NCBI RefSeq assembly: GCF_001905505.1
Contig: NZ_LIPG01000001.1
Location: 1,054,001 to 1,118,000 of the forward strand
Length of the DNA stretch: 64,000 bases
Direction: 5' to 3'
From: Streptomyces sp. CB02058
GTDB lineage: Bacteria; Actinomycetota; Actinomycetes; Streptomycetales; Streptomycetaceae
Position numbers and translations under genes: made by a program. This document shows, piece after piece, positions 38,581 to 63,336 of the stretch (the stretch's first letter is position 1; every line of letters begins with the position of its first letter). A model generated the notes under the pieces. That model did not search any database, was not told where the DNA came from, and saw nothing but the letters and a program-made list of their open reading frames with translations.

Positions 38581-38767
38581 GACATCACCTCCGGTGACGA
38601 AGGCGATGCCGAATTAATCGGAATAGCCTACAAGTGGTCGGATGTCATCCATCCGGTCACTCGGTGCCGTGTGATGCAAGGACCGTCCGGCGCGCCGCCC
38701 GGGCCACGCCCCGAACGGCGGACGCCCGGGCGGGCCGACGTCGGCCGGGACCCGGGACCCGGGAGGG

Positions 38768-57833: not shown

Positions 57834-57941
57834 AACGCCGGGTTCCCGATTCCACGCGCCCGCTCTGCGCCCTGTGCGGCGGCCGGACCGCCGTACAGGC
57901 TGGGGGAGACGGACGCCGGAGCTGTGAACAGAGGGGGCACG

Positions 57942-59210
57942 ATGCAGGATCTCAAGGTCACGTCATGGCAGCTCTTCGGGCACGACCGGCTCTATGTGAA
58001 CCTGCCGGACGGCACCGCGATCGGATGGGCGGACCGGGGCAGCGGCACGATCACGGTGCTGCACCCGCGCTACCGCGACGCCGTGACCGACGCGCTGGCG
58101 CGCCAGGTTCCGGACCTGCCGGCGCTCGTGGGCGAGGATGCGCCGCCCGTGCCGCAGGCGCCGCGCACCCCGCCGTCGGCCCCGAGGATTCCGCCGCTGA
58201 GGGGGATGCGGAAGCGGGGCGCCCTCGTGGACAAGGTGCCGACGCAGAAGCCGCCGCCCGCGGCGGAGGCGATGCCGGCGCAGGCCCCGGTGGGGGAGGC
58301 GCCGGAGGCCGAGGTGGTGCCTTCGGGTGAGGCGCCGGAGGCAGAGGCGGCACCGGTGGAGGAGGCGGCACCGGTGGTGGCGGCGGTGGGGGAGACCGCC
58401 CCCGGGCACACGGCTGGGGAGACCGCCCCCCGGCACACGGCTGTCCTTTCAGCTGTCCCCGAGCCCACGGCTGCTCCTGTGCCCGAGCCCGCGGCCGGGC
58501 ACACTCCCGCACCCGCCTCCGCTCCCGCTCCCGCCTCCGAGCCAGGGACGCCGTCCACCGGCTCCCGCAGGCCGCCCGTCCTGCCCGCGCTGACACCCGG
58601 GAGCGACCTCGCGACGCGCCGGCCGGGCGCCGCGCTGCGCGAGCAGCTCGGCGAGTCCGCGACCGGGGCGCTCGTACGGGCTGCCACCGGAGCCCTCCGG
58701 CGGCACAAGGACGGGGACCCGCGCAGGGGAGCCCTGGCGGGGGAGCGGCGGGTGGGTGCCGAGCTCAAGCGGCTCACCCGGCACGGCTGGCGGGTCCTGC
58801 ACTCCGTGCCCCTGCCGGACGGCACCGAGATCGGGCATCTGCTCATCGGGCCCGGCGGGGTGTTCGCCGTCAGCACCGAACACCACCCCGGGGCGTCGGT
58901 ACGGATCGCCGACGGCACCCTGCGGACCGGCGACGGCCCCCCGCAGCCGTACGAGCTCGACGACCGGCCGGGGACGCGGTGGGCGCGGACCGTGCTGGAG
59001 ACGCACTGCGCCTTCGACGTCCCCGTCCGGACCGTGCTGGTCTTCACCGGAGTCACCGAGCTGGAGGTCGTCATGACCCCGGCGGACGTCCGCGTCCTCC
59101 GCGAACGCCAGCTGTCCGCCCTCGCCCCGCTGACCGGCGTACTCACCCCCACCCAGGTGGAACGGGTCTACGACGTCGCGCGGAACAGGGAGGCATGGCC
59201 GGGGGCATGA
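57942..59210 (+). CDS. NERD-like protein with apparently lost nuclease residues
   Basis: A 422-residue protein: a short N-terminal beta segment (VTSWQLFGHDRLYVNLPDG), a long Pro/Ala/Glu-rich repetitive linker (about residues 60-210) and a C-terminal NERD-like domain (GERRVGAELKRLTRHGWRVLHSVPLPDGTEIGHLLIGPGGVFAVS). NERD nucleases carry D..E-x-K around IDHLxIGPGGVFxIETK; here the positions read EIGH and STEHH, so catalysis is probably lost. ATG 57942 follows GAGGGGG; GTG 57924 is an alternative. Confidence 0.75.
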   Translation: MQDLKVTSWQLFGHDRLYVNLPDGTAIGWADRGSGTITVLHPRYRDAVTDALARQVPDLPALVGEDAPPVPQAPRTPPSAPRIPPLRGMRKRGALVDKVPTQKPPPAAEAMPAQAPVGEAPEAEVVPSGEAPEAEAAPVEEAAPVVAAVGETAPGHTAGETAPRHTAVLSAVPEPTAAPVPEPAAGHTPAPASAPAPASEPGTPSTGSRRPPVLPALTPGSDLATRRPGAALREQLGESATGALVRAATGALRRHKDGDPRRGALAGERRVGAELKRLTRHGWRVLHSVPLPDGTEIGHLLIGPGGVFAVSTEHHPGASVRIADGTLRTGDGPPQPYELDDRPGTRWARTVLETHCAFDVPVRTVLVFTGVTELEVVMTPADVRVLRERQLSALAPLTGVLTPTQVERVYDVARNREAWPGA

Positions 59211-61106: not shown

Positions 61107-61838
61107 GTGACGAAGCTCAACCAGATCATCGCCGTGGAGAAGGGTGTCAAGAGCAAGTCGCTCCAGGACATCACCGCGGCCCACCACAAGGTGCAGAAGC
61201 CGGCGCTGCTGGCAGGCATCTCGCGTACGTACCAGCCGAAGGACGAGGAGGGCGAGCAGCTTCCGCCCGAGTCCGCGCGGGTACAGGTCAAGGCCGAGGA
61301 GGCGCTGCGTGAGATGTCCGCGTCGCTGACCCGGCTGTTCGACGTGACCGCGACGAAGGACTGGGCGAACTGCTCGGCCCGCGCCGACGTCGTCGTCGAC
61401 GGACGCACCGTCGTCGCCGAAGTCCCGGTCAGCTACCTGCTCTTCCTGGAGAAGCAGCTCACCGACCTGCACACCTTCGTGAAGAAGCTTCCGGTCCTGG
61501 ACGCCTCGGAGTCCTGGTCGCTGGACCCGTCGACGGACTGGTGGAAGACGGACCCGGTCCGCACCATCCGCACGAAGAAGGTCCCCCGCAACCACGTCAA
61601 GGCCGAGGCGACGGAGAAGCACCCGGCCCAGGTCGACGTGTACTACGAGGACGTGCCGATCGGGTACTGGACGACCGTGAAGTTCTCCGGAGCGCTTCCG
61701 GCGCGCCGGGTGAACGAACTGCTGGAGCGGGTCGAGAAGCTCCAGCACGCGGTGAAGTTCGCCCGCGAGGAGGCCAACGGCGCCGAGGTCACCGACCGGC
61801 GCGTCGGAGACGCGGTGTTCGGCTACCTGTTCGGCTAG
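61107..61838 (+). CDS. Conserved hypothetical protein (DUF7873-like)
   Basis: A 243-residue soluble protein starting MTKLNQIIAVEKGVKSKSLQDITAAHHKVQKPALLAGISRTYQP. It resembles Streptomyces proteins I recall as DUF7873; no function is known. The segment LFDVTATKDWANCSARADVVVDGRTVVAEVPVSYLLFLEKQL near residues 75-115 is the most distinctive. GTG 61107 follows GAAGGGGGCG. It is probably co-transcribed with the FGE-like gene. A hairpin at 61881 separates it from the tRNA-like locus. Confidence 0.7.
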   Translation: MTKLNQIIAVEKGVKSKSLQDITAAHHKVQKPALLAGISRTYQPKDEEGEQLPPESARVQVKAEEALREMSASLTRLFDVTATKDWANCSARADVVVDGRTVVAEVPVSYLLFLEKQLTDLHTFVKKLPVLDASESWSLDPSTDWWKTDPVRTIRTKKVPRNHVKAEATEKHPAQVDVYYEDVPIGYWTTVKFSGALPARRVNELLERVEKLQHAVKFAREEANGAEVTDRRVGDAVFGYLFG

Positions 61839-61880
61839 GGTCGGACGCGGATCGGACACGAGGCGGCACACCCCGAGAAC

Positions 61881-61905
61881 GCCCCCGCGCCAATGCCGTG
61901 GGGGC
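61881..61905 (+). terminator. Terminator after the DUF7873-like gene
   Basis: GCCCCC (61881-61886) and GGGGGC (61900-61905) form a stem with a 13-nt loop, 42 bp after the stop and ahead of the structured RNA locus. Confidence 0.55.
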
Positions 61906-61984
61906 TGCGCACCCTGCACGAGTCGGAATTGAGGTCCGTCCCGTGTGACGAGCGCAAGCTGAAACTGAACGTTCAGCCTGAAGA

Positions 61985-62061
61985 CGCGGTAACGGTGGAG
62001 GTTCGAGTCCTCCCCCCGGCACCACCTGCCGGGGTGGCCCAACATGGCAGAGGCAGCCGCG
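61985..62061 (+). tRNA. Permuted tRNA-like module 1 (Leu-like acceptor and D-arm)
   Basis: The 3' half comes first: variable AACGGT, T-arm GGAGG-TTCGAGT-CCTCC (61997-62013), acceptor CCCCGGC, discriminator A and encoded CCA (62014-62024). After only CCT the 5' half follows: acceptor GCCGGGG (62028-62034), TG, D-arm GCC..GG..GGC (62037-62054). The 7-bp acceptor is perfect. U8-A14, A15-U48, G18G19 and the T-loop consensus are kept. The anticodon helix pairs GCCGCG (62056-62061) with CGCGGT (61985-61990). D-arm style and discriminator A suggest tRNA-Leu ancestry; a canonical anticodon loop is not seen. Confidence 0.7.
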
Positions 62062-62131
62062 ATCAATCTCAGACTCTCGCTCCAGCTTCAGTATCGCCGC
62101 CGATTGCCAGATCGACCGAGTGCGGACGAAC

Positions 62132-62205
62132 ACCGTTGAATGCTGGTTCGAATCCGGCCTGCGCCTCTGCCGCGGCGCGGTAGTTCAAAGGAAGAACGCG
62201 ACGGT
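62132..62205 (+). tRNA. Permuted tRNA-like module 2 (Gly-like acceptor and D-arm)
   Basis: Again 3' half first: T-arm GCTGG-TTCGAAT-CCGGC (62142-62158), acceptor CTGCGCC (62159-62165) and discriminator T. After 8 nt the 5' half begins: GGCGCGG (62174-62180), TA, D-arm GTTC-AAAGGAA-GAAC (62183-62197). The acceptor pairs over 7 bp with one G-U. U8-A14, A15-U48, G18G19 and T-loop residues are kept. The anticodon helix is CGACGGT (62199-62205) with ACCGTTG (62132-62138). D-arm and U discriminator resemble tRNA-Gly. CCA is not encoded; no canonical anticodon. Confidence 0.68.
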
Positions 62206-62264
62206 ATGACGACTGATCCGCACTCTTAAACGGCGCTGGCAAGCGCAATTGGGTGGCAACCCCA

Positions 62265-62298
62265 GGGGCCCGGGAGCTGGATACGACTCCCGGGCCCC
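62265..62298 (+). terminator. Terminator of the tRNA-like locus
   Basis: A perfect 12-bp stem (GGGGCCCGGGAG 62265-62276 with CTCCCGGGCCCC 62287-62298) and 10-nt loop closes the structured RNA locus. Confidence 0.8.
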
Positions 62299-62463
62299 GC
62301 CACGTCCGGAGCGGTGGCCGTCCGAGGCGCGTCGAGACCGTCCTCGTGGGCCACCGCCGCCTTTCGCGTCCACCAACCCCGAGGTTCCTCCCGCGCTTCA
62401 ACCCCGCGCGTGGAATGACCGGTTGGAGGGATGCGGGTCACCTGTCCGGAGTACGTTCGCGGC

Positions 62464-63336
62464 ATGGCTACCAACAAGCTGATCGAAAACCCGGGGGCGA
62501 GCTTCGCCACGCTTCTCCTCCGCTCCGCACGCCTTCCCGGTGTGCGCGTCGAGCGGGAGGCATACCTCCGGACCGCGCTGGCCCGCCACTGCTCGGAGTA
62601 CGAGGTCGCCATGGCGGTGGCCGGGACTCCGGCGGCGGCCGGCATCTCTCTCGACGTGCTGAACAGGCTGGCCGATGAATCCATCCGCTACGAGACGGCC
62701 AAGGTCAGCGCCCTCTCGGCAGCTGCCGGCCTGCCCGGAGCGCTGGCCGCGGTGGCGACGGTGCCTGCCGACCTCGCCCAGTACATCGGTCACATGCTGC
62801 GTATCGCGCAGAAGCTCGCCTACCTCTACAGCTGGCCCGATCTGTTCCCCGACGACGGCGACGTCGACGGGGAACAGATCGACGACGCCACCAGGAGCAT
62901 CCTCACCCTCTTCTTCGGGGTGATGTACGGAACCCATTCCGCCAACGTCGCCGTGGGGCAGGTGGCGAAGGCGATGTCCGAACAGGTCATCAAGAAGCTT
63001 CCTCAGAGGGCGCTGACCCAGGGAGTCGTCTATCCGATCGTGAAGAGGGTCGCCGCATCCCTCGGCGTGGAGATGACGAAGCAGACCTTCGCGAAGTCCG
63101 TCTCGAAGGCCATCCCCCTGGTCGGGGCCGCCGTGTCCGGCACGCTCACCTTCGCCACCTATCGCCCCATGGCGAAGCGGCTGAAGACGCACCTCGCCGG
63201 CCTGGAACTCGCCGAGCCCGCCCCTCACGTCATTCCGGGGGAGGTCGTGCAGGACCAGGACGCCGACTCCCCGGCCGCTGCGGAGGCGGACGTCCCGAAG
63301 CAGGGCCGCGACTGGCGCATCGTCAAGCGGAAGTAG
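62464..63336 (+). CDS. EcsC-like helical protein
   Basis: A 290-residue protein with amphipathic and hydrophobic helices (LSAAAGLPGALAAVATVPADLAQYIGHMLRIAQKLAYLYSWPDL; KAIPLVGAAVSGTLTFATYRPMAKRLKTHL), reminiscent of EcsC-domain proteins. Function not established. ATG 62464 (MATNKLIENPG) begins the conserved part; an earlier ATG at 62431 has no better signal. It starts 165 bp after the terminator of the tRNA-like locus. The C-terminal 50 residues are charged and probably disordered. Confidence 0.65.
   Translation: MATNKLIENPGASFATLLLRSARLPGVRVEREAYLRTALARHCSEYEVAMAVAGTPAAAGISLDVLNRLADESIRYETAKVSALSAAAGLPGALAAVATVPADLAQYIGHMLRIAQKLAYLYSWPDLFPDDGDVDGEQIDDATRSILTLFFGVMYGTHSANVAVGQVAKAMSEQVIKKLPQRALTQGVVYPIVKRVAASLGVEMTKQTFAKSVSKAIPLVGAAVSGTLTFATYRPMAKRLKTHLAGLELAEPAPHVIPGEVVQDQDADSPAAAEADVPKQGRDWRIVKRK

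Follow-up and report, generated by a model that had tools for sequence, protein, structure and literature searches.

The DUF7873 gene and the tandem RNA downstream of it

Near the end of the window (the whole stretch of 64,000 nucleotides analysed here), a gene of the DUF7873 family is followed by a sequence predicted to encode a noncoding RNA in which a tRNA-shaped head of permuted order occurs twice. In the list below, a module denotes such a head, and a unit the head together with the helices that continue it; percentages and double changes are those of the covariation tests described in the next section.

61107..61838, +, DUF7873 (PF25283) gene, 243 aa, the predicted protein partner (Pfam E 2e-122)
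61935..62300, +, predicted two-unit noncoding RNA including the 3' hairpin (51-sequence alignment, consensus fold)
61959..61981, +, unit 1 outer duplex, leader strand; pairs with 62069-62091 (73.9% of cells paired vs 70.9% in shuffles)
61985..61989, +, module 1 anticodon-stem equivalent, 5' strand; pairs with 62057-62061 (double changes in 5/5 pairs, 72.9% of cells paired)
61997..62013, +, module 1 T-arm, GGAGG/TTCGAGT/CCTCC (99.2% of cells paired in 51 sequences, pairing being partly an entry condition)
62014..62020, +, module 1 3' acceptor; pairs with 62028-62034 (double changes in 7/7 pairs, 99.4% paired, partly an entry condition)
62021..62027, +, module 1 linker, ACCA + CCT, of variable length among relatives
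62028..62034, +, module 1 5' acceptor (sequence reading, alignment)
62037..62054, +, module 1 D-arm, 3 pairs, 2 of them invariant
62057..62091, +, unit 1 3' strands: anticodon-stem equivalent (62057-62061) and outer duplex, with conserved CTCGCTCCAG motif; outer-duplex covariation weak
62104..62136, +, unit 2 stem, 5' strands (62104-62110, 62120-62126, 62133-62136), with conserved ATCGACC internal loop
62142..62158, +, module 2 T-arm (99.6% paired, double changes in 5/5 pairs)
62159..62165, +, module 2 3' acceptor; pairs with 62174-62180 (double changes in 7/7 pairs, 99.4% paired)
62166..62173, +, module 2 linker, of variable length among relatives
62174..62180, +, module 2 5' acceptor (sequence reading, alignment)
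62183..62197, +, module 2 D-arm (97.5% paired, double changes in 3/4 pairs)
62201..62242, +, unit 2 stem, 3' strands (62201-62204, 62217-62223, 62236-62242), with conserved CTTAAACG internal loop at 62225-62232
62265..62298, +, strong 3' hairpin with GGATA-type loop, terminator-like, here without a T tail

Each module (61997-62054 and 62142-62197) consists of a T-arm and 3' acceptor strand, followed by the matching 5' acceptor strand and D-arm. This twofold permuted order had been described at the same positions in the first-pass annotation, and re-reading gave the same acceptor pairing (7/7 in both modules, with one G-U in module 2). Of the linker lengths given there, the 8 nt of module 2 stood, while the 3 nt of module 1 counted ACCA as the 3' end, the whole linker being 62021-62027. 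The residues then listed as kept (U8-A14, A15-U48, G18G19 and those of the T-loop) are present in both modules as U8, A14, A15, U48, the D-loop GG and TTC/A58. No anticodon loop closes either module; the strands continue into helices over tens of nucleotides. At the position of the anticodon arm, unit 1 has a short stem formed by leader and middle strands, together with a repetitive imperfect duplex, and unit 2 has a long stem, in which a conserved internal loop places AUCGAC opposite CUUAAACG. Folding of 61940-62305 as a single sequence gave a z of -2.5, equalled by one of 100 shuffles. A terminator scan returned none at the 62265-62298 hairpin.

A rule-based search of the window recovered the two modules as the only ones with 7/7 acceptors. 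Three additional matches to the same rules, in two places (24266 and 31161), had 6/7 acceptors and linkers of 45-74 nt and were taken as chance. After 60 dinucleotide shuffles of the window, no module with 7/7 acceptors and a linker of at most 10 nt was found on either strand, and ARAGORN called no tRNA gene in the window itself. It had been argued that ordinary neighbouring tRNAs would not give such a match twice. The shuffles support the pair of modules as beyond chance. A pair of tandem ordinary tRNA-Asn genes in the same genome (C7:669763; L005 1477-1628), in which the 3' acceptor of one gene likewise matches the 5' acceptor of the next, imitates one permuted module, so that a single module alone would not be convincing. 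ARAGORN calls these tRNA-Asn genes, whose anticodon arms are complete, but not the modules. The two permuted heads at the locus are regarded as real. The tRNA-Asn pair also scores as YrlA (38.4 bits), which is a warning for automated searches.

Conservation and covariation

Both modules were found in 162 of 223 loci. Of these, 84 had complete flanks, no linker longer than 12 nt and a middle of 84-97 nt; 51 remained for alignment after those more than 92% alike were dropped, and a further alignment comprised these minus 5. Entry required both modules, with at least 4/5 T-arm, 6/7 acceptor and 3/4 D-stem pairs, so that pairing in these elements was partly selected; helices 1-3 and 7-9 were not selected for.

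Given the 51 sequences and no structure, RNAalifold returned 52 pairs, 46 of them with compensated double changes, and its consensus includes both T-arms, both acceptor stems across the linkers, both D-arms and the three long helices of unit 2. The named structure comprises 70 pairs, 59 with double changes. It pairs 88.3% of alignment cells (shuffles 71.7%, slid versions no more than 45.5%) and contains 596 double-change cells versus 190 in shuffles, none of 500 shuffles being as high. The acceptor stems are 99.4% paired, which was partly an entry condition, and show double changes at 14/14 pairs. The stem helices of unit 2 (7-9), to which no entry condition applied, are 90.3, 87.2 and 73.1% paired, with double changes at 18/18 pairs. 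The outer duplex of unit 1 covaries weakly and exceeds its shuffles only by the small difference listed above. Decayed fragments of ordinary tRNAs, named early on as an observation that would overturn the reading, were considered as well; the strong covariation contradicts them, and ARAGORN called none.

Mutual information, computed with no structure model from 142 of 148 non-identical sequence sets, ranked at the top mostly the same helices, along with a helix between the middle and the tail. In the same 142 sets, a short closing stem of at least 5 bp was present in 79% for module 1, compared with 38% after random re-pairing of strands, and in 81 versus 51% for module 2. The corresponding figures for a module 2 outer stem of at least 6 bp were 87 and 84%, the test being loose and without discrimination there.

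U8, TTC, A58 and the D-loop GG occur in both modules in 148/148 sets (own locus counted), although the finder that chose the sets demands U8, TTY, R58, an A near position 14 and GG, so that among the kept features U48 alone is independent of it, and C56, A58 and A14 partly so. U48 is a T in 130/148 sets for module 1 and 124/148 for module 2. In the linker of module 1, the discriminator is A73 in 124/148, C74 is present in 130/148 and NCCA in 44/148; in module 2, position 73 is T in 111/148 and G in 33, with C74 in 142/148 and NCCA in 32/148. Linker length has medians of 7 and 8 nt, respectively, and reaches 76 nt. A C at -3 of the 5' acceptor was seen in 132/148 and 125/148. To judge from sequence, the near-fixed C74, the biased position 73 and the C at -3 are compatible with features of RNase P substrates. 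The 3' hairpin, with at least 8 bp, is present in 141/146 relatives and 66/146 base-shuffled controls; its loop reads GG-N0-2-TA in 102/146, and a T-rich tail follows in 54/146.

Association of the RNA with DUF7873

The best named relatives of the DUF7873 protein are Streptomyces proteins with 96-98% identity, and the family is large (7611 relatives among 7999 candidates scored). We found no paper naming DUF7873 in the open-access literature.

A covariance model of unit 2, hereafter R1, was built from 46 sequences including the own locus (138 positions). On that locus it scored 133.5 bits at 62104-62242, this sequence being one of the 46. R1 was then run on 61 genomes, with 54 candidates scored per genome, so that weak copies could be missed; scores are inflated, as the model derives partly from these genomes. 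Matches of at least 60 bits numbered 33 and occurred in exactly the 32 genomes that carry DUF7873 (33 genes), one genome having two DUF7873 genes and two strong RNA matches. All 33 strong RNAs lie 145-272 nt downstream of DUF7873 on the same strand. None of the 29 genomes without DUF7873 had a match of 60 bits or more (best 56 bits). Weaker matches were present in 19 of these 29; by coordinates, many of them fall within about 1.5 kb of a TROVE match, and others span model positions 19-117, similar to the own genome's tandem tRNA-Asn pair (20-116).

Conservation in related genomes, which the first-pass annotation had made a touchstone, was also evident by a strict regular-expression search. In 30 DUF7873 loci drawn from the 61 genomes and their 33 matches (own locus included), two modules were found in 27 and one in 3. 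Among 23 further full-length DUF7873 loci from a 296-genome draw of the class, 16 had two modules, 6 had one and 1 had none. One class member (G247; L063, L064) has only two partial DUF7873 matches, which lie in one open frame of 358 residues.

As for other genes, 70 of 118 flanking ORFs from 32 loci were scanned, and no Pfam family was seen in more than two of them, among the 25 of 71 families listed; hence no third gene appears to be consistently linked. The DUF7873 protein contains no TROVE domain (PF05731), the Pfam scan at E 0.001 giving DUF7873 only. Open-access titles on bacterial Y RNAs such as YrlA, on permuted tRNA and on tRNA-like RNA of phages named no such pair of RNA and protein; the main Y RNA papers may mention one.

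Occurrence in phages, plasmids and other phyla

DUF7873 was matched in 73 of 50,697 phage records and in 4 of 72,556 plasmid records. Of ten phage loci, six contain two modules (Arthrobacter phage Mimi, Gordonia phages Phendrix and Ziko, Rhodococcus phage NiceHouse, Pseudanabaena phage Pam2 and Klebsiella phage KpLz-2_45). Only one module, its linker 24-30 nt long, was present in Vibrio phage K479 and Rhizobium phages RHph_TM21B and RHph_TM16 (L160, L161, L162); R1 gave 15.2 bits on the Vibrio phage locus, which is not significant. In Microcoleus phage My-WqHQDG (L078 3950-4159), a HEARO RNA lies 3' of DUF7873 instead of clear modules. DUF7873 and its RNA are inside tRNA arrays in five of the ten loci; in two others, one or two tRNA genes lie no more than 3 kb away, and for the remaining three no tRNA is annotated in that range. 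The tRNA array of phage Phendrix also includes a tmRNA above the gathering score (L074 1072-1600).

Two sets of 80 loci were scored with R1 at E 1e-4 or better: in IMG/VR (the best 80 of at least 233 relatives) it matched 75, and in named genomes (80 of 303 relatives) 78. Among the genome loci are those of the cyanobacteria Nostoc, Anabaena and Calothrix and of metagenome-assembled Planctomycetia, Blastocatellia and Ktedonobacterales. No match at this threshold was obtained in five viral loci (L095, L096, L102, L118, L136), two of which have modules by regular-expression search, and in two genome loci (L165, L172). By regular expression, the viral loci (again the best 80 of at least 233) contained two or more modules in 44 cases, one in 30 and none in 6, with 10 matches in the upstream flanks (often tRNA-bearing) and 3 in shuffles as controls; for the genome loci, the counts were 67, 10 and 3 of 80. 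The arrangement varies in two viral loci: in L140 the RNA lies 5' of DUF7873, and in L143 it is on the opposite strand, 1.2 kb away.

Comparison with Y RNAs and Ro60

The nearest known kind is the tRNA-like head of bacterial Y RNAs; neither this nor the link to DUF7873 was named in the first-pass annotation. In a permissive Rfam scan of a 601-base stretch, the sole matches below E 0.01 were to YrlA (RF02553), one per module (E 4.3e-5, 32.1 bits and E 8.5e-4, 27.6 bits; gathering score 69), and at gathering thresholds nothing matched at the RNA. Since these scores are far below the gathering score, and 13 of 14 control genomes also gave YrlA matches at E 10 or better, the Rfam match alone is weak. 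Among the same 14 control genomes, Deinobacterium chartae was the sole one with DUF7873 and also the sole one with TROVE.

The window lies on contig C1, and the only TROVE/Ro60 match of the genome is on contig C7. Just upstream of that TROVE gene is a YrlA-like RNA (C7:1312545) which, at 59 bits, is under the threshold of 69 as well; the threshold is thus not decisive. With Ro60 and its own YrlA-like RNA on C7, the tandem RNA represents a second set that is not linked to Ro60. Within the genus, DUF7873 and Ro60 showed no association (13 genomes with both, 7 with DUF7873 only, 10 with Ro60 only, 7 with neither; p 0.74). Over all 61 genomes an association was seen (23 both, 9 DUF7873 only, 11 Ro60 only, 18 neither; p 0.01), which may reflect phylogeny. 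The RNA is also present in the 9 of 32 DUF7873 genomes that have no TROVE match.

Four Ro60 loci of related genomes (L253-L256), chosen for paired R1 matches, contain two Y RNAs each, close to the TROVE gene and separated by a few hundred nt (4/4 by R1, 3/4 by Rfam), so that tandem duplication is common to true Y RNAs too. In the four R1 alignments shown for Ro60-linked RNAs, the head fits well, whereas the stem aligns poorly if at all.

YrlA shares the order of the head (T-arm, acceptor-like stem, D-arm), with a stem in place of the anticodon arm (our alignments; PMC8394870). The long stem that closes a head of the YrlA type has its counterpart in helices 7-9 of unit 2, the duplex of unit 1 being weak. 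Unlike YrlA, the RNA described here has two heads per locus, a conserved unit 2 stem and a 3' hairpin, adjoins DUF7873 and not ro60/rsr, and falls short of the family threshold. A test for linkage to Ro60 was negative, and for this reason the RNA should not be classed as YrlA proper. According to PMC8394870, the YrlA head imitates tRNA in its D, T and acceptor arms, carries modifications made by DusA and TruB, and binds PNPase, and the Y RNA stem binds Ro60. Possible roles of Rsr/YrlA in tRNA decay or in inhibition of an anticodon nuclease are raised in PMC7790460, and a review of jumbo phages (PMC7824862) presents TROVE proteins, with a tRNA-like partner, as a platform for RNA repair.

A model for the tandem RNA and its alternatives

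The locus has two heads, covarying acceptor, T and D helices and a long covarying stem in unit 2, and in 61 genomes the RNA is coupled one-to-one and on the same strand to DUF7873, within the genus independently of Ro60. The observation is real, and the predicted RNA, widespread, strongly covarying and tied to DUF7873, is a tRNA mimic of the Y RNA kind. We consider it probable that this tandem RNA and the DUF7873 protein together form a particle, and that the heads of the RNA engage tRNA-handling enzymes. The most economical form of this proposal would be a parallel RNP in which DUF7873 replaces Ro60 and a two-headed RNA replaces one Y RNA.

According to the model, the DUF7873-adjacent RNA would be transcribed and would fold into two tandem units, in each of which a permuted tRNA-like head of T-arm, acceptor stem and D-arm sits on a stem. 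The DUF7873 protein would bind the stems or the conserved internal loops, as Ro60 binds Y RNA; such binding is predicted solely from the strict coupling. The tRNA-shaped heads might be recognised by modification enzymes, RNase P or an exonuclease such as PNPase, and the particle might tether or sequester such an enzyme in RNA quality control, repair or phage-host conflict. By analogy with Rsr/YrlA and TROVE, the RNP could act on damaged or structured RNA, or protect tRNAs, under stress or in infection. The presence in phages, often amid tRNA genes, would favour handling of damaged or structured RNA in infection, and this is the least certain part of the model. A more elaborate version is conceivable, although we hold it doubtful: a Ro60-free class of RNPs of phages and bacteria, in which the linkers would be cut by RNase P and 3' processing to leave a three-piece RNA held together by its helices, with the two heads gripping two tRNA-handling enzymes so as to repair, degrade or shield tRNAs in phage-host conflict. 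If the model is correct, a large protein family of no assigned function would be tied to a specific structured RNA as its predicted partner, tRNA mimicry of the Y RNA kind would no longer be confined to Ro60 but would include a second protein and many phages, and there would be a new handle on the reason why phages carry tRNA-like RNAs.

Several other explanations were considered. The heads, which have no anticodon loop, might act as decoys or competitive inhibitors that soak up tRNA-binding nucleases or toxins and so protect phage or host tRNAs. This reading overlaps with the proposed particle, and an inhibitor role of the YrlA head has been raised as a possibility (PMC7790460). It agrees with the five phage loci in tRNA arrays and the two with tRNA genes nearby, less so with the three lacking an annotated tRNA within 3 kb; moreover, no target or partner nuclease is consistently linked among the scanned flanking ORFs (the same 70, with 25 of 71 families listed), and conserved stems would be superfluous in a pure decoy. 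On balance we consider a decoy function by itself unlikely.

It is likewise improbable that the tandem RNAs are orphan Y RNAs which still serve Ro60 while being encoded apart from ro60. Such an origin would account for the tRNA-like head, for its occurrence in a genome that has Ro60 with a YrlA-like RNA of its own, for the paired RNAs of the four Ro60 loci and for the association over all 61 genomes. Against it, the strong RNA accompanies DUF7873 and not Ro60, including in the nine genomes without a TROVE match; the association vanishes within the genus; and in the four R1 alignments shown for Ro60-linked RNAs the stem has little or no counterpart.

Alternatively, the RNA could be a cis element in the 3' UTR of the DUF7873 mRNA that serves autoregulation or processing, its heads bringing in RNase P or DUF7873 itself. 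The close same-strand position 3' of DUF7873 in 33/33 cases of the 61-genome set would fit, as would the lack of any sigma-70-type promoter match in 61820-62440, but Streptomyces promoters are often invisible to such scans. Two complex domains seem to surpass the needs of known 3' elements, and the RNA is upstream of the gene in L140 and on the opposite strand in L143. We therefore give this explanation a low probability.

The two known kinds suggested by the first-pass annotation did not hold and are most improbable here. Permuted tRNA genes of algae and archaea also have the 3' half before the 5' half and pairing acceptors joined by a linker, and functional genes of this kind, with halves joined after linker removal, would agree with the permuted order, the near-complete acceptor stems and the NCCA at the start of some linkers; their outer ends, however, form an anticodon loop, in place of which extended helices are found here, NCCA is in the minority and ARAGORN detected none. 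A permuted two-piece tmRNA (cyano_tmRNA, beta_tmRNA) or a derivative of it shares the order of T-arm and 3' acceptor, linker and 5' acceptor, but the cyano_tmRNA matches are weak (16.5 and 14.6 bits against a gathering score of 70), the D-arms are canonical and the modules come in two tandem copies, a full tmRNA is encoded elsewhere in the genome (180 bits, C7:64429), and no conserved tag frame or stop was seen in the sequences, which were inspected by eye only.

Other features of the window

Pfam gave no match at E 0.001 for the ORF just 3' of the RNA (62431-63336, +, 301 aa), and its PADLOC match is to the candidate phage-defence family PDC-S30 (E 7.4e-102). An ORF with a NERD nuclease-related domain is located at 57924-59210 (+), and an NLPC-P60 cis-regulatory RNA, above its Rfam gathering score, at 38587-38685 (-).
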